Below, piece after piece: positions 10,401-40,202 of a stretch of DNA of 64,000 bases. The notes below the pieces were generated by a model, which worked only from the letters and a program-made list of their open reading frames with translations, was not told the DNA's origin and did no database searches. The stretch's first letter is position 1; the number at the start of each line of letters is the position of its first letter. Source of the DNA: Candidatus Poseidoniaceae archaeon (GTDB lineage Archaea > Thermoplasmatota > Poseidoniia > Poseidoniales > Poseidoniaceae); NCBI GenBank assembly GCA_949372655.1, contig CASIAI010000002.1, positions 124,001 through 188,000 on the forward strand, given 5' to 3'. Made by a program: the position numbers and the translations under genes.

Positions 10401-10802
10401 GGCGGTACAAGCAAAGACTTCGGTCAACAAATGTGGAACGAACAGTCTGGAATGATGGAACAAATTCCAGTCGCAGGCTCTCCACAAATGATGCAACAAC
10501 AACCAGTACAACCTATGCAACAAATGCAACAAATTCAACAACAATCAGTACAACAAATGCCTCAACAATCTATGCAAGAAATGGCTCATCCAATGCAACA
10601 ACCAGTTCAACCAGTTGCTCCAGCGCCAGTTGCACAAATGGCTATAGCACCACCTCCACCTGCTCAACCAACTACTGTTGCAGATTATACAGGGCTGCCA
10701 GCAGGTGGTCAATACGATCAATCAACTGGACAAACCATTTACATCCAAACAGATGGAACAAAGTGGCAAATGATGGGCGATGGAAGTTTCAACAGACTAT
10801 GA
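7491..10802 (+). CDS. Surface protein: PPC-like domain, Ca-binding repeats, membrane anchor, Q/M/P-rich cytoplasmic tail
   Basis: A signal peptide (MRVAVITILLLTAMYPLVTS) opens the protein. ATG 7491 is preferred over ATG 7470 because TTATAC at 7463-7468 lies about 26 bases before it, which would fit a leaderless transcript; the longer form is still possible. Counting from 7470, residues about 45-165 resemble a pre-peptidase C-terminal (PPC) domain (SEVEPNN start, WFKVWLEPGQ). Residues about 327-450 are Asp-rich thrombospondin type 3-like calcium repeats, and a Gly/Asn linker (NGGGNNGGG) follows. Beta-sandwich domains then lead to one membrane segment at about 948-972. The cytoplasmic tail is rich in Gln, Met and Pro and closes with a 38-residue GLPAGGQYDQSTGQ...WQMMGDGSF motif. 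The gene lies 67 bases after the Ig-repeat gene on the same strand. The function is unknown; a structural or binding role at the cell surface is inferred. Confidence 0.85.
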   Translation: MRVAVITILLLTAMYPLVTSTSLDDSPFEPQFTGASGVDVISEVEPNNVNTSGQETYPGDVVRGTVDMWDDKHDWFKVWLEPGQTLLLTLSHASGDGVSMSVWDEENTHLGVSNPSKTRDTIFLGEEQTDMGGVYFVSINATMTEVGGGAYVLEIDAGYAVQWYSPEVGWYAASEQYNAKGELMYTSSISSYQFANANTTDKQSAPVWSNGDFWNLSVTMPAIFGTTYDEYHQMTVTGSDTVSGKECYRVGIVGNSTFTSSFAGMTTTITDEQSGVACYAKDTLSMVHENLTFTSSMETSGGFGMMSTSGRECTTFFDEPDEDCDDVGDDDDFCPGTAPGVEVDGFGCSDAQNDDGGPGSDDTDGDGIPDSNDTCPNEASTAENDADSDGCPDDNGGGGDGGDGSGSGTADADNDGVSDDEDDCPNTPAGESADFFGCSDSQNGGGNNGGGNNGGGDNGGGGFGGLDDICIPSGTDMSQKTVINSDLTYANGMNNFNFPLTEGKVWSEAAVGSGTISLSIEMGGCTISTMDIQDSGALPLNYRHLGDQSFTIGQSSVTATGIQVFAGRQGNDDWATPDFTLLPSVPDDVAKMGLPFAAWINVVGFNEFASIVNLSASINPSNAPLTFNSTQLTVDELGAVIVDTMNLDSGDYIITITGTSNGMDRSITVPFTVDNDPDFDIVTLDPWIVIPQGVEWVVPTPIFIEPINGFSGADVTIGVTVPDGVTAQLDFSQGTAPFLSVLTLTIPSNLSAGDYTVIVTGTAGSTVHSDEITFTLTSMPEFSLEVENREQIIEDGTMSISGVIDAHNGLDLALGGALDVLIEPYNQELLDSAVITWGTIDSNGDLPFTVTFTVDESIPRNQYTINLNVVSLDGGLAHSASVAFVTESSTLDGTAVAADASAVSSGNTSQHDGTDDSATSIASGETNDDSKNDDSDSDSKSSNTAIIVGSTIGVIGIIAGVAVVVLRSRNGGTSKDFGQQMWNEQSGMMEQIPVAGSPQMMQQQPVQPMQQMQQIQQQSVQQMPQQSMQEMAHPMQQPVQPVAPAPVAQMAIAPPPPAQPTTVADYTGLPAGGQYDQSTGQTIYIQTDGTKWQMMGDGSFNRL

Positions 10803-21255: not shown

Positions 21256-22682
21256 AACTCAATTCGCTGCCACTGCTAGTGTATTCGACGTCGAGGGTGA
21301 TGACATTATCTTACGCCTGGTCAGATACTAGCGGTGAAGAGATTGATTGCGATAGCAACGTTTGTGTGATTTCCGTAGACGAGTCAATGGTACCAACTTT
21401 CAGATTTAACTTGGCTGTCACAGATTCATATGGTGCTATGGACAACACTCAAGGAGAAGTCACTGTTTGGAACTTTGATAACTTTACTTCTTCGGATGTC
21501 GAAACTGGAATAACACTTGATTATGAAATCACCTACAAGGGTACGGGACTATCAATGTCATACGGAAATGCATCTGATGCAACCGATATAGAACTTCCAG
21601 GATTTGATGGAACTTATTCGTCCGTTGGGGGGGTAGCAATTATTCCAGGTACAACTTTTGATACCAAAGATGTCTTGGAACAGTCGGTAAAGTTCACCTT
21701 TGCAGATTCAGTTGATGCAACCTCTATGTGGGTCAAGGCTGGTAACCTATGGCAATTGCTTGCATCCGGTACTCCTTCTGAAAGCGGCAATTCTGCCAGT
21801 TCTTTCACATACATGTGGGGAGAAGGAGAATCAATGTTCATTCCAGGAACCGAATTCCACCTATTTGGTGGAGTATTATCACAAGATCAAGCACCAGTAG
21901 CTAACATTAGCGGATTCACAGCAACGCCATCAATGTCTGGCGGAATCTCCATTAATTGGGCTGTCGATGGAACAATGCTAACTGATGATAGAGTTGTTAT
22001 TAGCATCTGTGACACCGATCCTAACTGCGCCAATGCAGGCGAGTCTAGTTATACTTCTGATGTTACCACAATGCTTTACTCTGGGCAAAACACAGTCCAT
22101 GGTAATACCTACTATGTCACAGCATCAGTATGTGATGGTGCGTTGTGTAGTAATGAAGCATCCGCAACAGTCGTTGCAGACAAAGAAGTTGCTTCAGTTA
22201 CCGCAACAGGTCTTACTATCGTAGAATCTGGAGAAACATGGGTCTTAGATTGGAATGCATCTTCCGAAGATTCTGATATCAATTCTTGGTTAGTTTGTTA
22301 CTTGAAAGCATCGTTTACTGCTTCAGAAATGTCTGACTTAGTTGGAACCTCTGCATGTGTAGCATCAGATACAACCAATGTGACTATTGACAAGTTCACT
22401 ACATCGGGTACTTACAATGTATACTTTGCAGTAGCGCCAGTAGATGTAGTTGGGAATATCGCTTTGACTGCTAGTAGTGACTTTATCGAATACATGAGGG
22501 TAGACGATACATCCAATCCTGATGACGGTTCTCAAACTACAGATTCAGAGGCATCTTCAGGAGTCCCTACGTGGACTTGGGGAGTAATCGGTATCGTAGT
22601 GGTAGTTGCCTTTGTAGCTGGTGCTTTCATACTCTCTCGTGGAGATGATGGCGACGATGAAAACAAAGACTGGGACTATTGA
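21240..22682 (+). CDS. Secreted surface protein, C-terminal part (same gene as 19612-21255)
   Basis: This is the downstream half of the gene that starts at 19612; the ATG at 21240 is probably not used. With a single T removed at 21309 the junction reads VEGDDITYAWSDTSGEEID, a typical PKD/Ig-like strand pattern, which strongly supports one original frame. Later regions include a domain of about 120 residues with Cys pairs and two fibronectin type III-like modules (PVANISGFTATPS and DKEVASVTATGLTI). A single membrane segment (WGVIGIVVVVAFVAGAFIL) and an acidic cytoplasmic tail end the protein. The topology is the same as in the other surface proteins of the window. Confidence 0.8.
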   Translation: MQVQIELNSLPLLVYSTSRVMTLSYAWSDTSGEEIDCDSNVCVISVDESMVPTFRFNLAVTDSYGAMDNTQGEVTVWNFDNFTSSDVETGITLDYEITYKGTGLSMSYGNASDATDIELPGFDGTYSSVGGVAIIPGTTFDTKDVLEQSVKFTFADSVDATSMWVKAGNLWQLLASGTPSESGNSASSFTYMWGEGESMFIPGTEFHLFGGVLSQDQAPVANISGFTATPSMSGGISINWAVDGTMLTDDRVVISICDTDPNCANAGESSYTSDVTTMLYSGQNTVHGNTYYVTASVCDGALCSNEASATVVADKEVASVTATGLTIVESGETWVLDWNASSEDSDINSWLVCYLKASFTASEMSDLVGTSACVASDTTNVTIDKFTTSGTYNVYFAVAPVDVVGNIALTASSDFIEYMRVDDTSNPDDGSQTTDSEASSGVPTWTWGVIGIVVVVAFVAGAFILSRGDDGDDENKDWDY

Positions 22683-22948: not shown

Positions 22949-25900
22949 ATGAAAGAAATGAAAAATAAAAGAGGAAAAACAATATTTGGCGGAGTAGGAA
23001 TTGCGCTTCTGTTGTGCTTATTGATGGTAATGATGCCTTTTGCATCAACTGTTTCAAACGGTGATACAACTGAAGAAATTTCAACAGAAACAAATTCAGA
23101 AAAAATATACAGCGAAGAATCGACGTTACTAGGTAGCGCCGATGCTAGCTTTGATGCCGAAGATTATGGTTACGATGCCGACTATGAAATGTTAGGCATG
23201 CGTGAACTAAATTCCAAGGTATTCATCGGAGATGATGGTGGCATGGATATGATATATTCATCCGATCCACTTCATTATCTCGATGTAGAAAACAATCTAC
23301 AAGAGATTGACTTAACTATTGATGCATCAGAAGATGGCTATCAAGTGACAGAAACAAGTTCTCCTGTATACTTCGAAAGCGAAGTTGAAAATGGTTATTC
23401 AACCCTTTTCGGTGGAGATTTTGAAATTACATCTGGTGTAGATTCAATGATTGTTGCAATCAAGTCTCCTTCGGATACCGAGCAAATGGTAACTATCGGT
23501 GAAGCCAGTAATGGTCTAACCGACGATAAGATGGCTTCAGATAATACTAACTTTGAGATCACACCTCTATATTTTGAAACATCAAGTAATGTCCTGACCG
23601 GGGGTAACAAAATTAGTTACCCATTGTCCGATACAATCGATATGGTTTACACCGTAAAGCAAGATAAGGTCAAGCAAGATGTTGTAATCAATGCTCTCCC
23701 TCACATGTATGCTGAGTTGCCCGAGTTCCAAGATTCACAATATTTTGGACTATATGAGCGATTCGAAATACCAGTAGGCCATCATCTAGTCTCCTATGAT
23801 GGTTTAGATCTTTCAGGCGTCGAACTATTCGAAACCGACAAACATCTTTCCATAATCAATACCGATACTGGTCAAGAAGTTGTCAGAATAGAAGCCCCTG
23901 TGTCTCATCACTCTTCTCTAACTGATGGCGAATCTCAAATCGAGTCAATATATTTCCTCTCTGTTGACGAATTTGGTACATCTGGTTCAATAATTACAGC
24001 AATACCGATGTCTTCTCTTCTGTCTAAAGACATCAGTTTCCCAGTTACTATTGATCCAACATTTACATATGTCGCAACAGGTCAAAACAGTTACCAGGTA
24101 TGTGACATAAGTGCTAATGATTGCCATTCAAAGACCGATGGCCGTTACGAGTACGGAACATACGGAAAAATGCTTGACTCGCCAACATTCCCATTCCAAT
24201 TTGGTACAACATTACCGGATGCAAGCCCACTTTCACCTGTTGAAAGTGTAACTGCAAAGGTATACTATGATGCTGACTATGATGCAGGATATGCAGATAT
24301 CATCATCTTAGAAGACTGCGGTCTTTCATCAGCAGGCGCTCCTACAGGTGACGAGCAACTTGGACAATTCGCTAATCCAAGCGGTTGTACCGGAAATGCA
24401 CTTCAAGCATACACTCCACCAGCTAACACTGGTAATCCACTTTACACATACGATGTTCCTACTAGCAGTAGTAGACACCAATGTACAGTGACAGGTGGTG
24501 GCGGATGGCAAGGTCCAACAGGCTACTGTATCCACTACTCTCACTTCGGATACAATTCCGGCAGTACAACTAACTTTGGCCGCTGGGTCACTGCAGATGA
24601 CAGTTCACCAGCAAATGGTGTGTTCGAAGAAGGGACATATGATTACGAAATCACAGACTCTTACGGAGACGGACTTAATGGCGCTTACTTTAGAATTTAC
24701 ACAAGAAGTGCAGGATGGACAGTATCCAACTCCCAAACAGGTTGGTCACTTCAATCACAATTCCCAACACCAACAGGATCCTTTAGCAGTTTCACAGGAA
24801 CAGTTGTAGTACCTGCAGGACAAGTTGCAACAATTAGATACTACTGTGGAGATTACGATCTAAGCAGTTGCTATACAGGTGAAACTCTATTCACTATACA
24901 AGCACAATCTGGCACTGTTTTGCCTTCATTGTCTAACGGCGGTAACAGTTTCGCTAGAGGCCCTGATGCATCTATTCAACTTGCTGGCGGTCAAGAAGCA
25001 CGAATGAAGTGGGTCTGCGGAACATGGTGTGGTGAAAACTCAGTATACTGGAGAGAAGCAGGAGGATCATGGACCAACACTCAGGTGTGGAGTCCAAACG
25101 GTGGTTCAGGTTCCAATGGAGCAACATATTACTCCAACAATGAAAATATTTTGATTCAAAATGCTGGTGGTTCAACAATGGACTTAGAATTCTTAGTTTA
25201 TGATTCATATGGAGACGGAACAAACGGTGGTTCAGGATCTGTCCAAGTTGGACCTCTAGGAACATGGGGTACAGTCCCATCGACTCCTTGGGGCCTTAGA
25301 CAAATCTCTATGGTCAGTTCAGAATCTCTTGGATACTTCTCAGTTCCATCAGGAACAGCAACAGGAACTCGAGATGTCGCTCTATGTACTACAGTAGTGG
25401 AATGCAGCGACAGTACAAGTTCAATTTCAATGTTGAATGATGCAATAGTTAATGCTGGATATATCGAATTCGGACTAGGATTTGCCAACTCAGCAGTTTC
25501 ATCTTCACCTCACCAAACAACTGGTTCAACTGCCAGTGTTGGTGGTGAGTTTTATATCGATAAGTTTGAATTGATTATTGACTTTGAAGAAGCAACAGAC
25601 GACACAACTCCTCCGGTAGATATGACTGAAGTTCACTACCAAGGTAATACCTACATCGACGGTCCACGTACATTGATTTTAGAGGTTGAAGATAGCGAAC
25701 ACGCTATTGATACTACTACCGCAAACGGTCCTAAACTTTGGTATAGCGTTGATAGTTCGAGTTATATTTCAGCATCAGCATCATTAGTCAGTTCAGTTTG
25801 TAACGCAAAAGAACAAACTTGTGCATTCATGGCACAAACAAGTCACCTTTCAAGTGGAAGCGTAGTAGATTATTATTGGACTTATCAAGATGCAGCCGGC

Positions 25901-28900
25901 CCTACAGCAACAAAGCCTAATCAGGGACCTAACCCTACTCAATCTTCAACAATGCAATTCACAATACTAGAAGCTTTGACAGCAGGAACTGCTCAGAAGA
26001 TTACAACACTTGTTGAAAATGTAAAGGCTAATTACGATGGTGGAGCAAAAACACCAGGAAATACAATTGACAGACAGATGACTTACTATACAGATACCAA
26101 TGAATACTTCTTTGAATTTGATACATCAGAATGTGAAACATATACTTCAGCAGGATATTCTTGCTTCAGTACTGACTCCAACAATGACTTCGGTCACTGG
26201 GATGTTCTCTGGCAAGACGTACTACCAATGCCTGTGACTCCTGGGCAAGTCAGCGGATGTACAGGAACAAGCGCTCACAGTCATAGCATTGGAATCATCT
26301 GCATATGGCGGCGACTTCGATATCACACGCCAACTCGGCGCAGGCTACTAATCTTGGCGTTCAAGTATGATGCTACGGCTGATGCATGGACGGTCGCTGG
26401 TGTAGGTGATGGCTCAAATGGTCTTAGAATCGGTGATAAACTCGACTCTAATGCACCAGACACTCAATCTGTTCAAGGAGTCGTATTGAGCGCAGTCACT
26501 GAATCAACACTAGTACCAGCATTCTCAACATCGAACAGCGGAGATTATTCTAACCCAGTGACACTTGTTGTGCCTGCTGGTAAAGAAGCAATCATAGGGT
26601 TTGTTTCAGGTTCATATGCTAGTGAAGCTGGAGTCAACGTCAATGATGGAACTACTGACTATCAATGGGGTAGAACAACTCACAGACTCGGTTCAGGTTA
26701 CTTACCTGCAAATGGTGTAATAACTTGTGCTGGGTCCTCTGGCTTCTCCAGTGGAACATATTGGTCCAACGACGCTAACGATGGAACTTCTAACAACTGT
26801 ATTCCAAATGGCGGAGTACTAGCTGCTGGAACCTATGAAGTAGTTCTCATGGATTGGTATAGTGATGGTTCAAATGGTGGCTATCTCAAGGTTAAGGTTC
26901 AAGATGCTGGCGGAAACTGGGGTGTAGATCCAAATGTGATACCTTACACTCAGGTCTCTTCAGGTTCAACTTACACTTGGGGGACTTCCGGATTCAGCAT
27001 TGACTTGTCACAATCTACAACACCTGCAGTTACATCTGGCTCTTTTGCCAGTCACAACTTCTGGGATAATACTGCTTCAACTCCTTCTGGCTTGAATATC
27101 ATCTGTGTTACAACTAACGGATTGGTATACTTCAAAGAAGATACCTCTACTAGTGCAGGAGACTGTCCAGCAGATGCTGATGATTCATCTAACGGTGGAA
27201 CATGGCAAGGGTTTGCTCTAGCAGGTTCAGTTCAAGGAGAACAACCAGCAGGAGAAGGAATGCTTTGGTCTATTAGGAACATAGCACCTGACCCTGATAT
27301 TACAGCACCTTTGATTCAGCATACAGGAATGGGTGACTCACACGCACGTTCAAGGACAGTTTCAGCAATAATTTCAGACCCAGGTTATCAACCAACGGGT
27401 CTAGAGGTTAGTTCAGTAGTCAATGTAGGTCCTACATTGCACTATGAAATTTATCAAACCTCTGGGGCACCTACAGGAACATTCACAGAAGTGCCTATGA
27501 ACCCTGAAGGTACCAGAACACTTTGTGCTGAGATGGAATGTACTTGGAGTGCAGACTTACCTGAATTAGGTAGTGACCGTGATCAGTCTGTTGTCTACAA
27601 GATAACTGCTCAAGACGTATCTACTGCAGGAGGAGCTGCCAACAATGCTGCAAATACTGCTACAACAACAACTGCAACATTCAAGGCTGATACACCTACA
27701 AACACTCTAGTGTTTGAGTGGCAAAACTATGCTTCTGATTTCGCAGCATCTGAGGTATGTTCATTCCAAGTTATTCTTTATGATGTAACTAATGAGTTTG
27801 AATTCCACTATGATGAATCATGTTCGACTGATGAAATGGTTGGTGTAATAGGTCACAGATTAGACCAAACTACAGCCACAACAATAGAAAACCTTGTTGA
27901 TTCAACACAATCAGGTAACCCTCATTCATACAATATCCGTGTGACAGATGGTGCCGATGGATATTCTTACGAATATTTCGATTTGGGAATCACCACACCT
28001 CTACCTCTTGCATCGTCGACTCTAGCAGTTGCTGCTGGAACTTCAGCAAGTTTCAGAACTGAAAACTGTGTACAACAATTCTGGACTCAACTAAGCAATT
28101 ACTGTGCTGGAAATGTCGACATACCTTCTGGATTTAGTTTCGACTTCCACGGAGTCACATTCGATGGTGATAACGGTCAAGATGATAGAATCCAAGTATC
28201 TGCAGCAGGTGTAATGAATCTATTATCAAACCAACCTGCAACATCTCACAATACAGTATCTCCAGTTCATGGAGTCTCATGGTCTGGTGCAATGTATGAC
28301 ATGAACTCAGCATCACCATTCTACAAGGACAATTCAATAGCTCCTTGGTGGTCTCCTGCAAGCAATGATTATTGTGCTCAATCCAGCGGATGTAATGGTG
28401 TTTGGTATAGAACAATTCCATTCGAAGGACAAGGGATTACGGAAACATCTGACATCAATACAGATAAAATTTGGTATCTTGTAGACAGTCCAATACGCGT
28501 CAACCCATCTGATCCATCTGGATATCTTTCAGTTAATGCTAATTTGGAAATTCAAGCAGGTGTTGAAGTAATAGTTGCTCCGGGTAAAGGTATCTCTTTT
28601 GACTCAGGAATTGTTAACGGTGCTTGTACTAAATTCACTGTAGGCAAAGCATCAGACACTGGAAGAGTTTCATTCAATGCAGATCAAACTACGGCAACCT
28701 CACCTTCTAACCCTGAAACTTGGTATGGCCTAGCATTCACTGATGAATGTCAAGGCGATACTACTGAAAGGCATATATTCGAGAATGTTGATATTAGTAA
28801 CACAGAATACGCAGCAATCACTGCAGGTAGCAGACCAGGAAGCCCGTCTGCTCAGTACTCCTGTGGAACATCCTCATCAGACTGTAACGTTGGTGATTTC

Positions 28901-31900
28901 CTAATGACTGGAATGACATTCACTAATGTCGAATCAGCCTTTTCTCATGGTAGCGGTCAAGGAACTGCAGTTACAATGTCGAATTTCGATATTAATACTG
29001 CGAGAAGTTCCTGTTTCAACTTTGCTGAAAATACAATGGCAACACTAAGTGGTACTCCTGCTGATAAAAGTACAATGGTAAACTGTAATTCTGACGGAAC
29101 CGCCAATGGTGGCGCTATTATCGACGTTCCTGGAAGTACAGGAGGTTCTTTGACAATGTCCAACATTGATATTACGGATTCTCTTAATACTTTGATTCGT
29201 GTTGATTTCAAGACAGTTGTAATTTCAAATGTTGCTGCAACAAATACAGTGGGTCAAACTCCTGTATCTGGTAACACTGTTAACTCTGGAGTAAGTCTCG
29301 GTTTAACTCATGCTAGTGGAGCATCTGTAGATATCAGTGATTTCTCAGCCCCTGGTTACCATCATGGATGGATTAACGCTGCAGGCTCTATCTCATTGGT
29401 TAATGTAGATCTTGGAAGTGGCTTGTCACCGGCACCTTCACTACCACAGTACTTCGATATCGAGCCATTTGGTAGTTCAGGTACAACTGCTGGAGCAACA
29501 GGCAGTGATGCAATTTTCGACAATTTCAACGTTGCTTCTCTGAATATGTACAGAACTTTCCCCGGAACTTTCAATGATATTACTACTGCCGGAAGTTTGA
29601 CTTTCTATGGATTGAGCACATTTGCCCAAGATGTGGAATTGACAGGAACATCGGTAATCGGTGGCTCTGTTGGAATTGATGGCTGTGGAAGTAATGTTAA
29701 GATTACTGGAGCGACTATAGGTCAACTATGGTCTTCTTGTCAATTCGGTAGCAAGAACGTTGTTGATATCTTGGGAACAACAATTCTTCACACCCCATTT
29801 AGTAGTACATACAGTAGTGCAATAGAACTATCTTTAACTAAGGCTACATTGATTGAAGTCGATGTCCAAAGTGATCTAATTGACGGTACAACTGCGTGGT
29901 ATGCTAACGTTGGTTCAGGCAGTGACCTGTACTTGGTTTCCTCAACTTATACTGATACAGGCACTCCTGCAGCAGCAGTGGACTGTGCAGATAATGCTGG
30001 GTCAACCACATTATGTTTGATCGACTTTAACTCAGGTGTCGGGCAATATGTTTCAGAGGTTTATTACGGCGGATATGCTAATGCTCTGGCCTACAGACTT
30101 GGTGTTGTAAATGGAGTCCCAGCGCAACAAATTCTACAATCTGATGTAACCATCACTACTCAAACACTCGATTCAACAAATACAGTTGTAGCCCAGATTG
30201 GTTCTGCAATTACTGGTTCAAGCCCATTGGGTAAGACAAGTAAAGTGGTTGTAATTACTGGAAACCAAGGTGGCGATATATTCACAGAACATATCGTACG
30301 TGCCACAGGCGCTGCTGGAATTGGTGATGTAAAACCTGGCGATTTAATCACGTTTTCTAATGAAGTATCCCAAACCCCTGGTACCGTATTTGGTGACTAT
30401 AATATCGGCTCATACGTGGATGTTAGACTGATTGCACCTCCGGTGACTTTTGATTCATCGAACATGGATTGCAATTGGATGATGAATACAAACTCTACAT
30501 TCATGAATGCTTATGACTCTGTAAAAGATTCCTTCGTATTCAAGGGTGCTGCTTTGACAATTGATGGAGATATGTTATTTGATGGATGTTCTATTGAACT
30601 AGAAGGTTCTAAGATGCTATTTAGATCTGGTACTGTGACCGTTGAGGGTGCTGGTATCAACCTTGGTTCAATTTTGATGACAATCGATGGTGACACAGGA
30701 GATGCTCCAGAAATTATTGGAGAAATTACAGGTTCAGAGGTGGTCGATGTGGCAATTGGATTAGGAGGTACTGTTAACATGCAAGCTGGAACAATTCAAG
30801 ACATGGTAGTCACTAATTCTAAGCCTGGACAATTGGTTGTAGAATCTGGTGGTACACTCATTATGGCAGGAGCAGCACAAATACTTGGTTCCGACTTGAC
30901 CGGAATGGGCCCTTTCTATCCAATCGTTTTCGCTAATGGTGGAACTGTTCAAGTTACAACAGGCCAAATCTCAGGAATGAGTAATACCGGTACAGGACTT
31001 TCCACAGTTAATGCTTTCGTGAATGCTAATGGACTAACAGTAACCAATGCATACGCTGGTGTTTGGGGAGAAGATTCTGCTCTAACACTTGATGGATTCA
31101 CATCAACCAACAATGCTTATGGAGTTATAGCAGAAGGTGCTATGACACTACCTAAGATTCATCGTAGTGCAACATTACAAGGAATTAACCAATATACTTC
31201 AATGGATGCTTGTATATACGGATGGTGGAATGCTTGTGGACATTGGCAGACATACTCGATAGATTTCTCAACCTACTTAGGTAGCCAAGATTATCTTCAA
31301 GCAGGTATGGATCTTCAATTCCAAGGTCACTTGTATGATGCATACTCCGGATATTATACTCCGTACATGACATTAGATAATCTTAAGATTACAATGTCTG
31401 ATAATATAGGACAAAGCTGGACAGTTGATTCTTCAAGCGACAAAGGATACTATCCTTATGGCGCTGCTGACCCTGCTTCTGGAACCACAGCTGCAACCTA
31501 CACGCCTGGTGCTATAGGTGGAGTACCTTCATGGGATTGTAGTTACAGAGGTCGTACATTCAGCCCTTACAATTCTTATGGAACCTATGGCTCTCAGAAC
31601 ATTGGTGGAGCAGGTACCATGGGTAACTTCTTCGGAGTTGGCGCATGGGGATACCCTGCAGAGTTCGGCTTTAGATGGACTGCTTCAGACAATGCAAATA
31701 TTGCTGCTGATGCATTTCCTCTATTCAACTGGGGTGACTCACATAGATATTTCTCACCGTATGCTAATTTCCCAGGTATGAACAATCTTTACCCACTACC
31801 AAGAGGTAGTGCATATGGTTCGAGCACTGTCGACGTTTGTGGTGCTCAAGCACAAACCAATTGGCAAGGCTCACTAACACAACTAGGAGCGAGCGCATTG

Positions 31901-34900
31901 CTTAACTTCCCAGTTGTTGATATTAGGGATACTTCTTTGACAAGTGTCAAAATGGAAGTTGATGTTTGGCATACTTACTACGGTCCTAATGCAGGATACT
32001 TCGACAACGGTAAGGCAGATAACGCACAAATAATGGCTCGTGGAAGCTCCAACCCAGCATCTATGGGTGATTGGTCAACAACTCTTCCAAACAACGGAAT
32101 TTCAATTATTAATTCTAATATCAACGATGCTAATTATGGTGTTTACTTGTTAGGTGACACAGTCGCAACATTTACCAATACTAATATTTCCAATCCAAGT
32201 TCTTACGGAGTATACACAGACGGAGAGAACTCAGTAACCTTTGACGACTTAAATGTGACAGATAACACAGCCTCAGGATTATTGAATTATGGATTCTATT
32301 CTGGTTCAACCAGTACAGGAGATATCACAATTAAGAATTCTAATTTCTCTGGACTATCCACTTCTTTGTACTTTAACAACGATGTTGGAACTACTGTTGA
32401 ATCGACAACTGTTTCATCTGGAGATACCGGATTAAAAATCGGTTCTTCAAGTGATGCAGATTACAATCTTGACGGTCTAGCAATCACTAACATGAATGTT
32501 GGAGTCGATGCTGCTGGTACTGGAAAACTAACAATTAAGGATTGTGTATTCGTATCAAGTAACAACTTCGATGTTGTTCTAGATGGTGCAAGAAATGCAG
32601 AATTTATCGACGGTTCTTTCACTGTGAAGCCTCTTATTGACAGTTCAAAGGTCAGTATTACTGGTTCAGGAACTTTGGAACGTTCAAGGTCATACTTCGC
32701 AGTATTAGATGCGGACTCATCTCCAGTAGTTGATGCAAATGTTATCCTTAGCAGCAGAGATGCGTCAGTATTCTCTGCTGGTACAACTGACGCAAGTGGT
32801 CTAGTCTCAGGACTTGCTTTCTCCGTATTTACTATGGATTCAGTAGGACCGATCAACGACCTAACTACCTTGTTCAACACCTACACACTTACTACAGTTG
32901 CACAAATTGGAACTTACTCTTACACAGATGTTAATACTAACAATGGTGACTTCCGCTACAAGATTACATCACCGACTTTGGCTGATGATCCGTATGACTC
33001 TGCAAATGCGATTAACTATGAATCTTACAGTTTGACTGATGTAGTGGATATTCGTATCTGTTCAAATGATAACTTACACACTGTAGTTGCTGGATGTGCA
33101 GGAACATTCGCTGATACTGATACAAGAACTTACACTTCTGGAATGGTAGAATATGGTTCTGAAGAATCTATTCAAGATATTTCAGGAACTGTAGACATGT
33201 CAAACAAGGTTATTATGTCTGATACTGGAAGTTATGAGATGAAAGATGGAACAACTTACAACCTTGATGGTTCGACTATATTGATGACAGGATATATGGG
33301 TCTTTACAACATAGGACAATGGACTGTTGAACAACCATATGGTACAACATTCAGTATGGATGGCGGAAGTGTTCTAGGAATCTATCCTGCTTCACCTTCT
33401 GGCGCTCCTGTTGGATACGCTCTTGGTGGACTTGGTGGATTTAGTGATGCACCATTATCCTTTAATGTCAACAATGTTGATTTCAATGGTATTGCAACAA
33501 TGTCAGCATTTGCTGGTGACTATGCTTCCTCCAGTTCTTGGAGTGGACTTTCCGCTTACAACGTGGGACAGTTCGAAATTACTGGAAGTAGTTTCTCTCA
33601 CTACAGAGGATTTAATTCACTGTATGCTAATGTTATTTACGATGTTGATACTTGTATTAGACTTGCAGGTGGAAATGGTGGACTTATTCAGAACAATATC
33701 TTCAGCGACTGTACTGCTGGAATAATGTTCAAGCAATCAGATTGGCTTGTCGATAGTTCTAATCCAAGCACTGGTTACGTTGACTCAAGAGCTACACAGA
33801 CTGACCATCCAGTAAATGGTTCCAAGCAATTCACAATTGATAACAATGAATTTACTGGTGGAGCTGGATTCAATATTTGGGTATACAACGATGCTAACGC
33901 AGATCAACTAACAATTACTAACAATGACATGAATTGTAATGCTTGTGAAGCACATATTGCTTTCTATGACGAGACATCCGTAGCACCAATCATTACTGGA
34001 AACACTATGAGAAACGGTGACTATGCAATTACTACCAAGGATACTCAACTAGCAACTATTGACTCTAACATAATATCCGATATTGAAGTCGCAGCAGTCT
34101 ATGTTGATGGTGGAGATGCAGATATTACAGGTAACACAATTACTGATTCAATGGGTGGAATTAGAGTAGAAGGATTAACCAAGCCTACTGAACAAGTAAC
34201 TTACTTAGTTGCTGGATTTAATACAGGAATGCCTCAATCATCTACTTCTCCTTTCAACTTTAAGAATTTCCTTTATGGTTCAGTATCTCAAGAGATCCAA
34301 TATACACTGGCTCCTGGTGATGAAATGATAATGGAATACAATTGTGGCAGTTGGTGTGGTGAATCAACTATTCAGTATAAGGCAGCAGGACAAGGATATC
34401 AAACATGGGATCCAGCAAACTTTGGAACTTCAAGTTCCCTTACAGACAGCATACTGTTCACAATCCCTGGTATTTACAAGTTTAAGTTACTTGACTCTTA
34501 CGGAGACGGCCCTAACGGTGGTTCTTTTGATGTGACTAAAGCAGCGTCTGGAACATGGACAACAGGTTCTACTAGCGGTCCAGCAACTGTTTTGGCTTGG
34601 ACTCACAACACACAACACTCACAATACGCAACTGGAACAGGTTCTAATGATGACGGAGTTGTCATTTCTAACCTCGGTTCTGCACCAACTACATGGGCAT
34701 TTAGAATGACCGATACTTACGGTGATGGAGCAAACGGTAACTCATACATCATCGAAGAAGCACCTGCAGGCACATGGAACGGTGCTACAGGTCCAGCTGG
34801 AGTTTATGTTGGTGGAATCAACGATGGAATTGGTCCATCCTTCACTAGCTCTGTAAACTCTGGAGATTACAGCGATTGGCTTGAAATTACTCTACAACCA

Positions 34901-34951
34901 AATAAAGAATTAAGAATGGTTTGGGATACTTGTTCCAGCTTGGTGTTATGA
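22949..34951 (+). CDS. Giant surface protein, N-terminal 4,000 residues (gene split by frameshift)
   Basis: A basic N-terminus and signal peptide (IFGGVGIALLLCLLMVMMPF) open the protein. Five (D)xYxDGxNG motifs occur near residues 571, 752, 1304, 3850 and 3925, several preceded by a Cys-rich GxWCGE motif (near 689 and 3799). A long region from about 1860 to 3745 consists of short repeated strands with Asn, Ser and Gly turns, typical of right-handed beta-helix (NosD/pectate lyase-like) folds. The ORF ends at 34951 because of one extra T at 34940-34941; removing it restores SSWCYES, matching the GxWCGES motif, and opens the frame to 39329. A stretch from 26276 to 26365 is also out of frame internally and gives an anomalous Arg-rich segment. 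The intact product is about 5,460 residues. The role is unknown; an adhesin or scaffold is likely. Confidence 0.85.
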   Translation: MKEMKNKRGKTIFGGVGIALLLCLLMVMMPFASTVSNGDTTEEISTETNSEKIYSEESTLLGSADASFDAEDYGYDADYEMLGMRELNSKVFIGDDGGMDMIYSSDPLHYLDVENNLQEIDLTIDASEDGYQVTETSSPVYFESEVENGYSTLFGGDFEITSGVDSMIVAIKSPSDTEQMVTIGEASNGLTDDKMASDNTNFEITPLYFETSSNVLTGGNKISYPLSDTIDMVYTVKQDKVKQDVVINALPHMYAELPEFQDSQYFGLYERFEIPVGHHLVSYDGLDLSGVELFETDKHLSIINTDTGQEVVRIEAPVSHHSSLTDGESQIESIYFLSVDEFGTSGSIITAIPMSSLLSKDISFPVTIDPTFTYVATGQNSYQVCDISANDCHSKTDGRYEYGTYGKMLDSPTFPFQFGTTLPDASPLSPVESVTAKVYYDADYDAGYADIIILEDCGLSSAGAPTGDEQLGQFANPSGCTGNALQAYTPPANTGNPLYTYDVPTSSSRHQCTVTGGGGWQGPTGYCIHYSHFGYNSGSTTNFGRWVTADDSSPANGVFEEGTYDYEITDSYGDGLNGAYFRIYTRSAGWTVSNSQTGWSLQSQFPTPTGSFSSFTGTVVVPAGQVATIRYYCGDYDLSSCYTGETLFTIQAQSGTVLPSLSNGGNSFARGPDASIQLAGGQEARMKWVCGTWCGENSVYWREAGGSWTNTQVWSPNGGSGSNGATYYSNNENILIQNAGGSTMDLEFLVYDSYGDGTNGGSGSVQVGPLGTWGTVPSTPWGLRQISMVSSESLGYFSVPSGTATGTRDVALCTTVVECSDSTSSISMLNDAIVNAGYIEFGLGFANSAVSSSPHQTTGSTASVGGEFYIDKFELIIDFEEATDDTTPPVDMTEVHYQGNTYIDGPRTLILEVEDSEHAIDTTTANGPKLWYSVDSSSYISASASLVSSVCNAKEQTCAFMAQTSHLSSGSVVDYYWTYQDAAGPTATKPNQGPNPTQSSTMQFTILEALTAGTAQKITTLVENVKANYDGGAKTPGNTIDRQMTYYTDTNEYFFEFDTSECETYTSAGYSCFSTDSNNDFGHWDVLWQDVLPMPVTPGQVSGCTGTSAHSHSIGIICIWRRLRYHTPTRRRLLILAFKYDATADAWTVAGVGDGSNGLRIGDKLDSNAPDTQSVQGVVLSAVTESTLVPAFSTSNSGDYSNPVTLVVPAGKEAIIGFVSGSYASEAGVNVNDGTTDYQWGRTTHRLGSGYLPANGVITCAGSSGFSSGTYWSNDANDGTSNNCIPNGGVLAAGTYEVVLMDWYSDGSNGGYLKVKVQDAGGNWGVDPNVIPYTQVSSGSTYTWGTSGFSIDLSQSTTPAVTSGSFASHNFWDNTASTPSGLNIICVTTNGLVYFKEDTSTSAGDCPADADDSSNGGTWQGFALAGSVQGEQPAGEGMLWSIRNIAPDPDITAPLIQHTGMGDSHARSRTVSAIISDPGYQPTGLEVSSVVNVGPTLHYEIYQTSGAPTGTFTEVPMNPEGTRTLCAEMECTWSADLPELGSDRDQSVVYKITAQDVSTAGGAANNAANTATTTTATFKADTPTNTLVFEWQNYASDFAASEVCSFQVILYDVTNEFEFHYDESCSTDEMVGVIGHRLDQTTATTIENLVDSTQSGNPHSYNIRVTDGADGYSYEYFDLGITTPLPLASSTLAVAAGTSASFRTENCVQQFWTQLSNYCAGNVDIPSGFSFDFHGVTFDGDNGQDDRIQVSAAGVMNLLSNQPATSHNTVSPVHGVSWSGAMYDMNSASPFYKDNSIAPWWSPASNDYCAQSSGCNGVWYRTIPFEGQGITETSDINTDKIWYLVDSPIRVNPSDPSGYLSVNANLEIQAGVEVIVAPGKGISFDSGIVNGACTKFTVGKASDTGRVSFNADQTTATSPSNPETWYGLAFTDECQGDTTERHIFENVDISNTEYAAITAGSRPGSPSAQYSCGTSSSDCNVGDFLMTGMTFTNVESAFSHGSGQGTAVTMSNFDINTARSSCFNFAENTMATLSGTPADKSTMVNCNSDGTANGGAIIDVPGSTGGSLTMSNIDITDSLNTLIRVDFKTVVISNVAATNTVGQTPVSGNTVNSGVSLGLTHASGASVDISDFSAPGYHHGWINAAGSISLVNVDLGSGLSPAPSLPQYFDIEPFGSSGTTAGATGSDAIFDNFNVASLNMYRTFPGTFNDITTAGSLTFYGLSTFAQDVELTGTSVIGGSVGIDGCGSNVKITGATIGQLWSSCQFGSKNVVDILGTTILHTPFSSTYSSAIELSLTKATLIEVDVQSDLIDGTTAWYANVGSGSDLYLVSSTYTDTGTPAAAVDCADNAGSTTLCLIDFNSGVGQYVSEVYYGGYANALAYRLGVVNGVPAQQILQSDVTITTQTLDSTNTVVAQIGSAITGSSPLGKTSKVVVITGNQGGDIFTEHIVRATGAAGIGDVKPGDLITFSNEVSQTPGTVFGDYNIGSYVDVRLIAPPVTFDSSNMDCNWMMNTNSTFMNAYDSVKDSFVFKGAALTIDGDMLFDGCSIELEGSKMLFRSGTVTVEGAGINLGSILMTIDGDTGDAPEIIGEITGSEVVDVAIGLGGTVNMQAGTIQDMVVTNSKPGQLVVESGGTLIMAGAAQILGSDLTGMGPFYPIVFANGGTVQVTTGQISGMSNTGTGLSTVNAFVNANGLTVTNAYAGVWGEDSALTLDGFTSTNNAYGVIAEGAMTLPKIHRSATLQGINQYTSMDACIYGWWNACGHWQTYSIDFSTYLGSQDYLQAGMDLQFQGHLYDAYSGYYTPYMTLDNLKITMSDNIGQSWTVDSSSDKGYYPYGAADPASGTTAATYTPGAIGGVPSWDCSYRGRTFSPYNSYGTYGSQNIGGAGTMGNFFGVGAWGYPAEFGFRWTASDNANIAADAFPLFNWGDSHRYFSPYANFPGMNNLYPLPRGSAYGSSTVDVCGAQAQTNWQGSLTQLGASALLNFPVVDIRDTSLTSVKMEVDVWHTYYGPNAGYFDNGKADNAQIMARGSSNPASMGDWSTTLPNNGISIINSNINDANYGVYLLGDTVATFTNTNISNPSSYGVYTDGENSVTFDDLNVTDNTASGLLNYGFYSGSTSTGDITIKNSNFSGLSTSLYFNNDVGTTVESTTVSSGDTGLKIGSSSDADYNLDGLAITNMNVGVDAAGTGKLTIKDCVFVSSNNFDVVLDGARNAEFIDGSFTVKPLIDSSKVSITGSGTLERSRSYFAVLDADSSPVVDANVILSSRDASVFSAGTTDASGLVSGLAFSVFTMDSVGPINDLTTLFNTYTLTTVAQIGTYSYTDVNTNNGDFRYKITSPTLADDPYDSANAINYESYSLTDVVDIRICSNDNLHTVVAGCAGTFADTDTRTYTSGMVEYGSEESIQDISGTVDMSNKVIMSDTGSYEMKDGTTYNLDGSTILMTGYMGLYNIGQWTVEQPYGTTFSMDGGSVLGIYPASPSGAPVGYALGGLGGFSDAPLSFNVNNVDFNGIATMSAFAGDYASSSSWSGLSAYNVGQFEITGSSFSHYRGFNSLYANVIYDVDTCIRLAGGNGGLIQNNIFSDCTAGIMFKQSDWLVDSSNPSTGYVDSRATQTDHPVNGSKQFTIDNNEFTGGAGFNIWVYNDANADQLTITNNDMNCNACEAHIAFYDETSVAPIITGNTMRNGDYAITTKDTQLATIDSNIISDIEVAAVYVDGGDADITGNTITDSMGGIRVEGLTKPTEQVTYLVAGFNTGMPQSSTSPFNFKNFLYGSVSQEIQYTLAPGDEMIMEYNCGSWCGESTIQYKAAGQGYQTWDPANFGTSSSLTDSILFTIPGIYKFKLLDSYGDGPNGGSFDVTKAASGTWTTGSTSGPATVLAWTHNTQHSQYATGTGSNDDGVVISNLGSAPTTWAFRMTDTYGDGANGNSYIIEEAPAGTWNGATGPAGVYVGGINDGIGPSFTSSVNSGDYSDWLEITLQPNKELRMVWDTCSSLVL

Positions 34952-34958
34952 ATCAGGA

Positions 34959-37900
34959 ATGGAATACGGAGAAATCGCTGTATCCACTGCACTAGCATGG
35001 GTTGGTCCAGATATTCACAACAATGTAATTACTAATACTGGATTTGAACCTACTGCATACGGTATTAGAATCGAGGCTTGTGATATGACTCAATATCATA
35101 TTTCGACTATATCAAATACTGTAAACATTGGACAAGATGCTTTGGTTGCAGACAGTTGTACATGGATAGACCAAGGTTCAACATTAACTGGAACTGATCT
35201 AGCAGGCTCTGTTGGATTCAATGATGATAATGCATATGGAGCATCAGTAGTCCTTTCAGGAACTACAATTTCTGGCTTCGAAACAGGAGCAAAGAAGACA
35301 TCTGGTGACTTGACTATCCTCAGTGGTTCTACAATTACTGCTGGTGCAAATGGTTTGGGTCTAATGACTCAAAACATCGATGTCATCCTTAAGGATTCAA
35401 CCTTCGATGGTGGCGCTACAGGTAAGGCTATTCAAATTGAAGACAGTTCTTCAGCAACATTGGATAATGTAAACACTGCTGGTACCGATGGTGCTACATT
35501 CATGATGAGTGAATTCACATGGACTGGCGGAGCATTGTCTAATACAGGAATTGCACTATCTGCAAATGGTTCTACTGGAGAACTAACTTCTCTAGTTTAC
35601 ACTGGCTCTGGAACTCAAATCGAAGCTTTGAATGAGACTTACATCAACTCAATTGATTACAGCCTTGACGGAACTATGAGCGTCGATGCAACATCAATTG
35701 TTGACGAATCAAATTGGTTGTCTATCTCAACTGACCACACTGGTGGAGACTCAGCATTATCTGCTTATCCTTCACCAGCACAGGAAGTTGGATTGATGAT
35801 AACAGATGCAACTGGTAACTACGGTGCATATGTTTCACCTACTTTCAACGCTGACTCCTTAGATAACACAATGGTTGTCAATGGTTCTAACGAAGACTGG
35901 ATTGGTGGTAACATACTAAACCCATCTGGATTTGTAATGCCTGGAGAAGTCAGTACTGATTTCTTCATTACAGCGTCTAGTACTAATCTTTACATGGCTT
36001 TCAACGGAATAACTTCTACAGATGATATATATGTATACTTCAATACTAACGATCTGGCTGGTTCAACTACTGACTTTAACAACGAACATACACTGCCATT
36101 TGGTGCTGAACAAGCACTTGTGATTGACTCTACTGGAGCCAAAGTTTACTCATCTGGTCTGACCGGATGGACACAAGCAACAGGTGCTGTACAACTTGAC
36201 CGCTCTACATCATTCGTAGAAATAGCAATGCCTCTATCATCACTGGGAAGTGGTTTCGATGCACTAGACATCGTAGCAACTGTTCAAGTAGGAACTGATG
36301 TTTCAGTAGCTCACCCTACTCAAACAATTCTTCAGACAGGACTTGAGACATTAACAGATAGTTACTCAATGAATCTAGGACTTCTTGATATGTCAGACGG
36401 TACAATTACTGACCAAGTAATGCTTTACCGCTCTTTCTTCAAGTCATCTACACCTACAACAGGACATACCTACGACATTATGGTCAAGACAGCAGCAACT
36501 GCTGGACAGACCTGTAAATATGACTGGGCTACATTGGCTACAGAAAGCTTGACACCAATTTTGATGGATCAATCTCAATCAGTATCTTTCGATATCTTGA
36601 GAGCTTGTCCAAAGATTACAAGTGCTCTTACAGATGTTGTTGTCTATGAAGATAGTGCAGCATTTGACTTCGCTCTTGCAACTTTGGTTGATGATGAGCA
36701 AGATGTTGAAGCGACCATGAAGTGGGATGTCTTAGGCGACAATTTAGTTGCTCATGATAATATTCTATCAGATTGGTCTGATGTGACCAATACTGATGGA
36801 ACTGTATCTATAACTCCAATTAATGACCAATTTGGTACTTTTGAACTGGAGTTCCAAGTAATTGACTCTCACGGACAAACTGATTCAGAAGTTATTACTT
36901 ATACAGTAACCAACGTTAACGATGCTCCATGGATATGTGACGCATTGGCTGATGTTGATCCAAATTGTGACAATGGAGATATTGCTTTGTACACAGACGG
37001 AGGATTAGTCAATACACGCTATGAAGGATTTACCTCTACAACTAAACCTCTAGGAGACGCTCATAACGATACAGGAAACTCATTCGTTCGTGATATGGAT
37101 AATGAAAATAATATCCCACTATCTCCTGCACAGGTTTACACATGGGCTGCAGCCGCTGATTGTGACCAATTTAGTGAAGTGAAAGTTGGATTAAATCAAT
37201 TTGGGTTACAAGTTGTGAATATTATTGAAAACCCCAACTGGGAAGAAGGTGGTATTTGTGATATTACTCTCGACCTTGATGATAACGGTGTTGAATTCTG
37301 TTTCGATTCTGCAACAAATACAGTTGTTACTGCTAAGCCTGCATCTGATTCACGAACAGATTGTGAAACCGCAGGATATGTTTGGATGGGCGAAAACTCA
37401 GCTCAATCAGTTGTCGTACCATTCTCAGTTGCACCGGTTAACGATGCACCTGTAATCGCTGATGATACAACCTACAACAACAACAATGGCGTCTTGGTAG
37501 ATTCTGTAGATGGTTCTGTTGATTGGGTAGCAGATGGTGTAGACTACAAGGTTACTTTGGTTGAAGATACTACAGAATCAGATACACTCACCTTCGACTT
37601 ATCATCTATCAAGTCTGATATAGACCATCTAGATGCAGACCTTTCTTGGACTCTTACTGACTCTGAAGATTGTGATTCATCAAGATACTATACCCACCAA
37701 ATCAATGGAGACTTGTTAGAGTTCACTCTAATTGAAGACGCTACAACCAATGCTCCAGACTGGGAGAAGGATATGTTATTCGATAACGGTATTCACCAAG
37801 AGAGACCTACTACTGCAGGTAACTGTCCAATGCACCTAAGATTGTATGATGACTATGATGACTACATACTGAATGAAGCTGCTATACTAGCAGGTACAAC

Positions 37901-39329
37901 TCACGTATCTTCTCACCCAAGATATACTAACTATACTTTGGTTAATCCAAGTTCATATGTACCATTGAGAGTGGAAGTTGATCTATACGTTACTGTCGAC
38001 AATGTTAAAGAAAGTGTTCCAGACTACGAATTTAGAGCAGACAGTGGATTTAACTTCAACAGTGTTACCAACATCATGCCAGGAACATTTGTACCTGTAG
38101 ACTTCACAATATTCTCCTCTACAACAACCGGAGATAGTGGACCATACAGATACCAAAGGCTACTGAAGGTTACAGTACACAGCGACGGTCATGAGGAAGT
38201 GGAACTACCAGTTTACTACACACCACCTGCATACGGTGAGTCACTATTTGTTGATGACTGGCAAGTCTACATTACTGGTGAAACCACTGAAGTTTGGGTT
38301 GAAATGGATGTTGTAACATGTATTCCTAACAGTAGTCCTTGTACTCCTGGAGATAAGGTGCTACAACTTGATGAACCAAGTTCTCACCTTTCAACCGGTA
38401 CAAACCCTAACCCTTGGTCGGAACCTGGTAAGTCAACATCTAACAGAGCACCAGCTTTCGAAGACCGAAACTGGTGTAATAACTTGATGTCCACTAACCC
38501 TGTAGCTACTGATACTCCACTATCTAGTGTTGTTCTGCAAAATAACTGTCAGCATACTTCTGACTCATATATTGGTGAAGAATCAGGATTTGCTGCTATG
38601 CAATGGCAGAACACTGGTCAAGAACTACCAAATGTTGTTAGAACGATCGGTGCACTTTCAGTAGCATCTTTCGCTCCGAGTTTGATTGCAGTTTGTCTAA
38701 CTGGACTCTTTGTAAGTGTTCTAGTATTCTCCAGCCGTCGTGAAGATGATGAAGAAGAATATGAAGCAGAAGTTCTATCAGATGATGAATCTGCAGTGAG
38801 CCCAGTAATTGCTACTATCTTGATGGTTGCAATTACAGTGGTACTATCTGGAGTTGTCTATGTTTGGGCTGCACAACTTGCTGATGCAGACACCAAGGGT
38901 GTCCCAAGAGTCACCTTTAATGCTGAGAATGTTGATTCAGGAAGCGCTGATACTGACCACTGGAAGATTGTAGTTGGACAAGCACAATCGCCTTTGGCAA
39001 CACAGGCTGTTGAAGTTACACTACTCTATGTAGACGCAGCTGGAGACCTTCAAACAATTATCATAAACCTTGGTTCACCAAATCAGGTGTATGGTTTCAC
39101 TCCATACAACAGCCCTGACTCTGCAGTCACTTTCAGTGATTTAGTAGATGATACTAACCCTGATGAACTTGTATCTTCGTTCAGCTCTGGTGATGAGATT
39201 TATGTTAGAACTCACGTAGATGGCCATCCTTTGGTTGATGCACAAATTTCTATCACATACAATCCTCCAGTAGGACAAGCACAATTGTTGAAGAAATACG
39301 TTGGTTTGAGTTGGAACGAACCTGTTTGA
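34959..39329 (+). CDS. Giant surface protein, C-terminal part ending in a type IV pilin-like module
   Basis: This continues the frame of the gene that starts at 22949; in the corrected frame it is open from 34941, and ATG 34959 is probably internal. More beta-helix-like sequence comes first, then a carbohydrate-binding-like sandwich (about 310-470) and cadherin-like domains (VVVYEDSAAFDF, NDAPWICD, NDAPVIADD). A membrane segment at about 1237-1257 (LIAVCLTGLFVSVLVF) leads into an acidic cytoplasmic linker (SSRREDDEEEYEAEV). ESAVSPVIATILMVAITVV at about 1276 then matches the hydrophobic N-terminal domain of archaeal type IV pilins and archaellin-like proteins (Pilin_N, PF07790). About 150 more residues of beta-rich sequence follow, a normal pilin size. 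The linker between the two helices should be cytoplasmic, where prepilin peptidase acts. Confidence 0.85.
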   Translation: MEYGEIAVSTALAWVGPDIHNNVITNTGFEPTAYGIRIEACDMTQYHISTISNTVNIGQDALVADSCTWIDQGSTLTGTDLAGSVGFNDDNAYGASVVLSGTTISGFETGAKKTSGDLTILSGSTITAGANGLGLMTQNIDVILKDSTFDGGATGKAIQIEDSSSATLDNVNTAGTDGATFMMSEFTWTGGALSNTGIALSANGSTGELTSLVYTGSGTQIEALNETYINSIDYSLDGTMSVDATSIVDESNWLSISTDHTGGDSALSAYPSPAQEVGLMITDATGNYGAYVSPTFNADSLDNTMVVNGSNEDWIGGNILNPSGFVMPGEVSTDFFITASSTNLYMAFNGITSTDDIYVYFNTNDLAGSTTDFNNEHTLPFGAEQALVIDSTGAKVYSSGLTGWTQATGAVQLDRSTSFVEIAMPLSSLGSGFDALDIVATVQVGTDVSVAHPTQTILQTGLETLTDSYSMNLGLLDMSDGTITDQVMLYRSFFKSSTPTTGHTYDIMVKTAATAGQTCKYDWATLATESLTPILMDQSQSVSFDILRACPKITSALTDVVVYEDSAAFDFALATLVDDEQDVEATMKWDVLGDNLVAHDNILSDWSDVTNTDGTVSITPINDQFGTFELEFQVIDSHGQTDSEVITYTVTNVNDAPWICDALADVDPNCDNGDIALYTDGGLVNTRYEGFTSTTKPLGDAHNDTGNSFVRDMDNENNIPLSPAQVYTWAAAADCDQFSEVKVGLNQFGLQVVNIIENPNWEEGGICDITLDLDDNGVEFCFDSATNTVVTAKPASDSRTDCETAGYVWMGENSAQSVVVPFSVAPVNDAPVIADDTTYNNNNGVLVDSVDGSVDWVADGVDYKVTLVEDTTESDTLTFDLSSIKSDIDHLDADLSWTLTDSEDCDSSRYYTHQINGDLLEFTLIEDATTNAPDWEKDMLFDNGIHQERPTTAGNCPMHLRLYDDYDDYILNEAAILAGTTHVSSHPRYTNYTLVNPSSYVPLRVEVDLYVTVDNVKESVPDYEFRADSGFNFNSVTNIMPGTFVPVDFTIFSSTTTGDSGPYRYQRLLKVTVHSDGHEEVELPVYYTPPAYGESLFVDDWQVYITGETTEVWVEMDVVTCIPNSSPCTPGDKVLQLDEPSSHLSTGTNPNPWSEPGKSTSNRAPAFEDRNWCNNLMSTNPVATDTPLSSVVLQNNCQHTSDSYIGEESGFAAMQWQNTGQELPNVVRTIGALSVASFAPSLIAVCLTGLFVSVLVFSSRREDDEEEYEAEVLSDDESAVSPVIATILMVAITVVLSGVVYVWAAQLADADTKGVPRVTFNAENVDSGSADTDHWKIVVGQAQSPLATQAVEVTLLYVDAAGDLQTIIINLGSPNQVYGFTPYNSPDSAVTFSDLVDDTNPDELVSSFSSGDEIYVRTHVDGHPLVDAQISITYNPPVGQAQLLKKYVGLSWNEPV

Positions 39330-39359
39330 AGTGTTTAACACTACACAGTGAAACGGACG

Positions 39360-39524: not shown

Positions 39525-40202
39525 ATGGGCCAGAACGTAAGTCTCGATATTAAGTGCGTAATTTTTGATTGCGATGGAGTTCTTGTTGATTCTGTAAGTT
39601 CTTGGAAGACGCTTCACGACCATTTTGGTACAGATAATTCTCTTAATCTTAATAGATTCATCAAGGGAGAATTAACCGATGTCGAATTTATGCGTTCTGA
39701 TATTCAGATGTGGAAAGAAAAGGGAACACCAATTTACAGAGATGACCTGTTCCGTGCTTATTCGGGTGTAAAACTGATGAAAGGTGCCCGAGAGTTAGTA
39801 GCTGAATTGAAAGAAAAGGATATCTTTGTTGCTATTGTTAGCGCTGGTGTCGATATATTTGTTTCATCGATTGCTGCCATGCTGAAGGCCGATGACTGGA
39901 TTGCCAATGGTTTTCTATTCAATGATGATGACAGTCTTTCCGATGAAGGTATATGCAGGCTCCATGCGAGTAAGAAGAATTTAATCATTGAGAAGATCAT
40001 AAACATGCACGGCTTTTCTCCACAAAATTGTGTATCGATTGGTGACTCGGAAATGGACTTGTCAATGCAGGTTGAAGGGAGTGGTTTTGTTGGATTCAAT
40101 CCTAGTCGGGAATCCTCTTACCAAGCATTCAATGATGCCGGAGTTCCAATAATTGAGGAAAAAGACCTCATGTTAATAAGGCCATACTTAGGTCTTGAAT
40201 AA
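39525..40202 (+). CDS. HAD-superfamily phosphatase (phosphoserine phosphatase-like)
   Basis: The 225-residue hydrolase has motif I FDCDGVLVD (nucleophile Asp15, general acid Asp17), motif II IVSAG near 106-110, a Lys motif III (ASKKN) and motif IV IGDSEMD near 172-178. The cap inserted after motif I (residues about 22-85) and the overall length fit the SerB-like branch. Members dephosphorylate phosphoserine or other small metabolites; the substrate is not determined. The gene stands alone between the giant gene and convergent dp1, whose stop abuts its own. Confidence 0.85.
   Translation: MGQNVSLDIKCVIFDCDGVLVDSVSSWKTLHDHFGTDNSLNLNRFIKGELTDVEFMRSDIQMWKEKGTPIYRDDLFRAYSGVKLMKGARELVAELKEKDIFVAIVSAGVDIFVSSIAAMLKADDWIANGFLFNDDDSLSDEGICRLHASKKNLIIEKIINMHGFSPQNCVSIGDSEMDLSMQVEGSGFVGFNPSRESSYQAFNDAGVPIIEEKDLMLIRPYLGLE

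Follow-up and report, generated by a model that had tools for sequence, protein, structure and literature searches.

A conserved type IV pilin module at the C-terminus of a giant surface protein of the Poseidoniales

The question raised by this locus is what a type IV pilin module does at the far C-terminus of a giant, membrane-anchored surface protein. The window analysed is a 64,000-nucleotide stretch of a Candidatus Poseidoniaceae archaeon genome (contig CASIAI010000002.1), and all coordinates given below are those of the window.

The giant surface protein gene

The gene and its downstream neighbour are arranged as follows.

22949..34951, + strand: N-terminal 4000 aa of the giant surface protein (ORF, frame 2)
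34921..34962, + strand: frameshift, frame 2 to frame 3, by which the gene is divided in this assembly (alignment to the intact relatives L037, L038 and L041)
34959..39329, + strand: C-terminal 1456 aa of the giant surface protein, in an open frame of 1471 aa (ORF, frame 3)
39525..40202, + strand: HAD-family hydrolase gene, downstream neighbour (synteny marker in several genera of both families)

The protein begins with a secretion-like, signal-peptide-like sequence (MKEMKNKRGKTIFGGVGIALLLCLLMVMM). Repeats follow in the N-terminal 4000-aa part, including right-handed beta-helix/NosD-like modules, and the Pfam models Beta_helix and NosD both score above cut-off there. The original prediction described a single protein of about 5,460 residues. 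In this assembly two ORFs are present (4000 and 1456 aa), and the single chain can be upheld only by comparison: close relatives encode the giant protein as one ORF (5,404, 5,368 and 5,507 aa), as do more distant relatives (4,513-4,625 aa), and the window's protein is presumably the same. The close relatives continue MVWDNCNAWCYESGMEYGE across the break point in one frame and, because they do, a frameshift near 34,940 is taken to separate the two ORFs.

ORFs of 547 and 480 aa that lie in different frames at 19612-22682 apparently belong to a single surface protein, interrupted near 21,245, which ends in a plain C-terminal membrane anchor. Since this second, nearby surface gene looks split in the same way, assembly indels are the likely cause of both frame breaks. 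Two further large surface proteins are encoded at 75-10802; the first (2,442 aa) contains 18 He_PIG repeats, the second (1,110 aa) a weak thrombospondin-3-type repeat.

Architecture of the tail

A single open frame at 38667-39329 (+ strand) encodes a membrane helix, an acidic linker, AVSPVIATILMVAITVVL... and a beta-rich domain. The parts of this tail, and the ectodomain module ahead of it, are listed below.

38085..38321 (limits approximate), + strand: membrane-proximal beta module of the ectodomain (strands 90-168 of a 503-aa AlphaFold2 model; paralogues)
38667..38729, + strand: transmembrane helix 1, running from outside to inside, with RR directly behind it (sequence; predicted helix)
38730..38792, + strand: acidic cytoplasmic linker (sequence; predicted disordered)
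38793..38798, + strand: predicted prepilin peptidase site A/V (Ala codon 38793-38795; mature residue 1 is Val, 38796-38798)
38793..38885, + strand: pilin H-domain helix AVSPVIATILMVAITVVLSGVVYVWAAQLAD (profile matches; 26 of 31 columns invariant)
38910..39326, + strand: beta-rich, probably Ig-like head domain with eight predicted strands (AlphaFold2 models; Foldseek)

Translation of 38370-39332 (+ strand) gives ...SFAPSLIAVCLTGLFVSVLVF-SSRREDDEEEYEAEVLSDDES-AVSPVIATILMVAITVVLSGVVYVWAAQL..., with no stop between the helices and a stop codon at 39327-39329. The membrane helix SFAPSLIAVCLTGLFVSVLVF is therein followed by the linker SSRREDDEEEYEAEVLSDDES, the pilin helix AVSPVIATILMVAITVVLSGVVYVWAAQLAD, about 145 beta-rich residues and the stop. 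The anchor, acidic linker, pilin motif and beta-rich residues first noticed at this locus are thus read directly from one frame. The pilin and archaellin-type models suggested as a check both match the tail above their cut-offs: Pilin_N (PF07790) scores 38.9 and 32.8 bits in two profile searches (cut-off 25.2 bits) and NCBIfam TIGR02537 (archaellin/pilin N-terminus) scores 40.5 bits (cut-off 20). In the profile search, Pilin_N has three other places in the genome, two of them above cut-off.

Distribution of the fusion

Poseidoniales tails were collected from genome contigs as 80 records, labelled Candidatus Poseidoniales, Poseidoniaceae or Poseidonia, or just Euryarchaeota or Thermoplasmatota; AH-273-F07 (L135) among them appears from its name to be a single-cell genome. 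Both helices lie in one frame in all 80, and a stop between them, which would have separated anchor and pilin, is ruled out. The tail is present in most of 60 genomes of the same genus, and it also occurs in nine further first-family genera and four genera of the order's second family; the proposed survey of related genomes therefore finds the same fusion across genera of both Poseidoniales families. In intact relatives the pilin motif lies 4,334-5,327 residues from the N-terminus.

The same HAD gene lies downstream in genera of both families, although the motif search missed it beside the gene at several other loci; it is used as a synteny marker and no functional link is claimed. Because this neighbour is common to both families, the distribution fits a single old fusion that was vertically inherited. 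Chimeric assembly or binning is ruled out by the 80 records together with the shared downstream gene across genera of both families. Three giant proteins (G008, G029 and G038) lack the tail only in appearance, as their sequences stop at contig ends.

Class-mates (f3) have stand-alone pilins only. A 2,041-aa frame elsewhere in the phylum (G178, L187) was considered as the same fusion, but has a Met about 15 residues ahead of the pilin motif; the preferred reading is that an ordinary pilin happens to lie within a long open frame that arose by chance. In every other Pilin_N protein examined from Poseidoniales the domain is N-terminal. Two large proteins with an N-terminal Pilin_N, L042 (G024:C37; 1,429 aa) and L044 (G012:C36; 1,046 aa), are possibly large modular pilins of the usual order.

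The collected tails also bear on whether the pilin is translated separately, from an internal start in the linker, with the fusion a mere read-through arrangement. An in-frame ATG is present in 58 of 80 linkers, and in 22 of 77 tails it immediately precedes AVSPV. However, 16 of 80 linkers contain no ATG, GTG or TTG, ribosome-site-like sequences are rare (12/80), the resulting leader would be acidic and none of the 80 records has a stop ahead of the pilin module. Separate translation is accordingly considered highly improbable.

Constraint on the second helix

Among 77 tails (400 random pairs, uncorrected proportions), pN/pS is 0.246 for helix 1, 0.418 for the linker, 0.084 for the pilin helix and 0.406 for the head. 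Synonymous differences per site are 0.62-0.74 in all parts (0.62 for the pilin helix vs 0.68 for helix 1). Within the tail, constraint is strongest on the pilin helix, whose first 18 residues are those of stand-alone pilins of the same group. Its low pN/pS, its invariant columns and this 18-residue identity indicate that the second helix obeys the rules of a pilin and is constrained beyond what anchoring alone would require. Haloferax volcanii pilins whose H-domain is exchanged for a foreign one do not form pili (PMC4371748).

A pilin fragment acquired in the distant past and now serving only as a second anchor would be consistent with the rapid divergence of the head (pN/pS 0.41) and with two paralogues that manage without the hairpin. 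This is improbable, since the H-domain is under about three times tighter constraint than the true anchor helix 1 of the same chain and retains its residue-for-residue identity with stand-alone pilins.

Topology and predicted structure

The linkers of the 80 records contain 759 D/E and 24 K/R residues; in relatives they are 19-23 aa long with a net charge of -5 to -9. The linker had been predicted to lie inside, and this placement gains support from the RR just after helix 1 and from paralogues that miss the hairpin while their flanks are still joined. In these paralogues (G037 and G157), the ectodomain module joins a pilin-type head directly, without helix 1, linker or pilin helix. Because the two domains are joined there without a hairpin, head and ectodomain are placed on the same side of the membrane, and the arrangement suggests that head and ectodomain module belong together. 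A cytoplasmic linker, with the head outside beside the ectodomain, is the supported topology. The hairpin-less paralogues are L053/L191 (G037:C120) and L205 (G157:C26); in G037, TSP3-like repeats and a new anchor follow.

The AlphaFold2 model of the tail consists of a helix, a disordered linker, a second helix and eight strands (mean pLDDT 73.9, pTM 0.57). The pLDDT of the head is somewhat higher in the 503-aa model that includes the ectodomain module, which is at most a weak sign of packing between the two. Foldseek returns eight matches to the head with E < 0.001, all of them archaellins, a pilus filament (that of Cuniculiplasma) or FlaF, at TM-scores of only 0.24-0.45.

Pilus or archaellum

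The genome encodes an archaellum operon (FlaI 676 bits, cut-off 550), a Tad-like pilus locus composed of an ATPase, two T2SSF proteins and a Pilin_N pilin, and a FlaK-like peptidase gene. Of 40 genomes of the second family, 11 encode an ATPase closely homologous to that of the pilus (71-75% identity), all with Pilin_N. The tail occurs in nine of these 11 (one of the nine having no more than a head fragment, at the end of a contig) and in none of the 29 others, which lack Pilin_N and the Tad-like ATPase as well; because the genomes share ancestry and are mostly drafts, these counts are not phylogenetically independent and Fisher values are descriptive only. Against FlaI, the same 40 genomes divide into four with both, five with the tail only, six with FlaI only and 25 with neither. 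The genera with the Tad-like ATPase also encode a third secretion ATPase, of about 511-546 aa (G056 and genomes of the second family, f2), and there are therefore perhaps two pilus systems.

These observations bear on the idea that the tail is an archaellum part, an ArlF/ArlG-like stator domain within a surface protein that would link the rotary motor to the surface coat. FlaF (4p94) and archaellins are among the best Foldseek matches, and the archaellum operon lies on the same contig, about 29 kb upstream of the window. ArlF and ArlG resemble the fusion in having a pilin-like fold outside the membrane with a proposed surface-layer contact, but the fusion does not track the archaellum: second-family genera g7 and g12 (drafts) have the fusion without archaellum FlaI, and g4 and g11 have FlaI without the fusion or Pilin_N. 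The predicted pilin helix (residues 59-88 in the first AlphaFold2 model, 329-359 in the 503-aa model) is about 30 residues long, nearer to the approximately 35 residues of archaeal pili than to the approximately 50 of archaellins (PMC7347861). A role in the archaellum is very improbable, and the fusion appears to follow the Tad-like/Pilin_N pilus.

The predicted cut site

Ala occupies position -1 in all 77 tails, while position -2 is free. Pilin sites of H. volcanii PilA proteins are DAVS, DSAV and RAVS (PMC4371748). The filament chains of CdiP of Cuniculiplasma divulgatum (8rey) and of Iho670 (5kyh) begin in mature form at the V of VSP (VSPIIATILL.. and VSPVIATLLL..), the register of the predicted cut; unlike the fusion, both are ordinary small N-terminal prepilins. 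The leader of a prepilin is short, hydrophilic, usually basic and ends in Gly or Ala (PMC10191384). The fusion has the Ala at -1 of archaeal pilins but departs from the rest of this rule, with an acidic stretch behind a membrane helix, whereas stand-alone pilins here, like most prepilins, have basic leaders.

In the second family, the peptidase is found in 13 of 15 genomes with the archaellum or this pilus and in none of 25 with neither. Its AWMDHKDRRVGN and GGAD sequences fit two active-site Asp residues, and it matches distant models only (Arc_PepC_II at 27.9-30.3 bits, near the cut-off; FlaK at 31.5 bits against 330). Peptidase_A24 (PF01478) has no match in 100 genomes; PF06847 does match. 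A GxGD-bearing ORF in L071 was considered as a peptidase and is read instead as a FlaJ-like platform protein.

The main rival to cutting is an intact two-helix anchor whose H-domain packs sideways against pilins or the pilus platform and so fixes the adhesin at the pilus base. Such a docking helix would explain both the strict H-domain conservation and the co-occurrence with the pilus, it accommodates a linker unlike a normal leader, and membrane-held pilins of H. volcanii work through the H-domain while unassembled (PMC4371748). It has no need, however, for an invariant Ala at -1 beside a free -2, which is the pattern of a prepilin peptidase site, or for a full 18-residue match that starts at residue 1. 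An uncut anchor is therefore judged possible but rather unlikely.

Comparison with known systems

The module shares with haloarchaeal and euryarchaeal pilins of the PilA family (Pilin_N, PF07790; 8fj5 and Natrinema PilA2, 8gi2) the H-domain AVSPVI..ILMVAITV.L, the Ala before V at the predicted cut and a beta-rich head. Unlike in those pilins, it is C-terminal, behind more than 4,000 residues (more than 5,000 in the window) and a membrane anchor, and its 'leader' is the acidic linker. The modular pilins PilB and PilC of Streptococcus sanguinis likewise combine adhesive modules and a pilin in one chain (PMC8179133). There the pilin leads and the module follows (the most extreme case cited is 860 aa; PMC8179133), whereas in the Poseidoniales protein the pilin stands last, after a separately anchored module of about 5,200 aa. 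PilY1/PilC1 tip adhesins are also large and are proposed to cooperate with minor pilins at the pilus, although PilY1 itself is no pilin and is the proposed partner of separate minor pilins (PMC8179133), so that the likeness is functional only.

The defining feature of prepilins is a class III signal at the N-terminus (PMC10191384). The fusion protein has no such signal at its N-terminus, and for this reason it is not filed as a canonical type IV pilin; it is a protein that carries a pilin module in reversed order. In the literature searched (mostly papers outside subscription), no earlier report was found of a C-terminal or internal pilin, nor one of giant Poseidoniales surface proteins.

Proposed model

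The explanation preferred here, with moderate confidence, is that a giant anchored ectodomain and a C-terminal pilin module are cut apart and that the pilin becomes a minor pilus subunit. Starting from the fusion, its conservation, the supported topology and the co-occurrence with the pilus, cutting, assembly and coupling would proceed as follows. One chain would hold parts of two products, a giant ectodomain that is exported by its signal peptide and bears a transmembrane helix, and a complete type IV pilin module. The hairpin would insert after export of the ectodomain, with the second helix returning outward and placing the head beside the ectodomain. The FlaK-like prepilin peptidase would then cut A/VSPV at the cytoplasmic face, in the linker. 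The freed pilin end would enter the Tad-like/PilA-type pilus as a minor subunit while helix 1 keeps the ectodomain anchored, and the head, to judge from the paralogues, probably remains bound to the membrane-proximal ectodomain module. The giant adhesin would thus come to lie at one end of the filament, base or tip, with its own subunit supplied 1:1. It is a more tentative proposal that prepilin peptidase acts here as a polyprotein processor, cutting between two membrane helices and leaving a freed head that stays ectodomain-bound and couples adhesin to pilus.

Significance

In Poseidoniales, a giant protein of about 4,500-5,500 residues ends in a pilus-subunit module with an intact predicted cut site, which suggests that a single chain supplies both an adhesin and a pilus subunit, possibly separated by a later cut. 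If the cut is real, the substrate range of prepilin peptidase would be wider, and a pilin would be supplied from the C-terminus of another protein, for which no description was found among type IV filaments. Type IV pilins are searched for by their N-terminal signal, using FlaFind, SignalP and N-terminal InterPro entries; a C-terminal pilin therefore readily escapes such searches. Among the archaea of ocean surface waters, Poseidoniales are the most abundant. Their particle attachment was earlier credited to the archaellum operon (PMC6461757). As the fusion appears to track the pilus rather than the archaellum, the giant adhesin-plus-pilin is a testable candidate for particle attachment.
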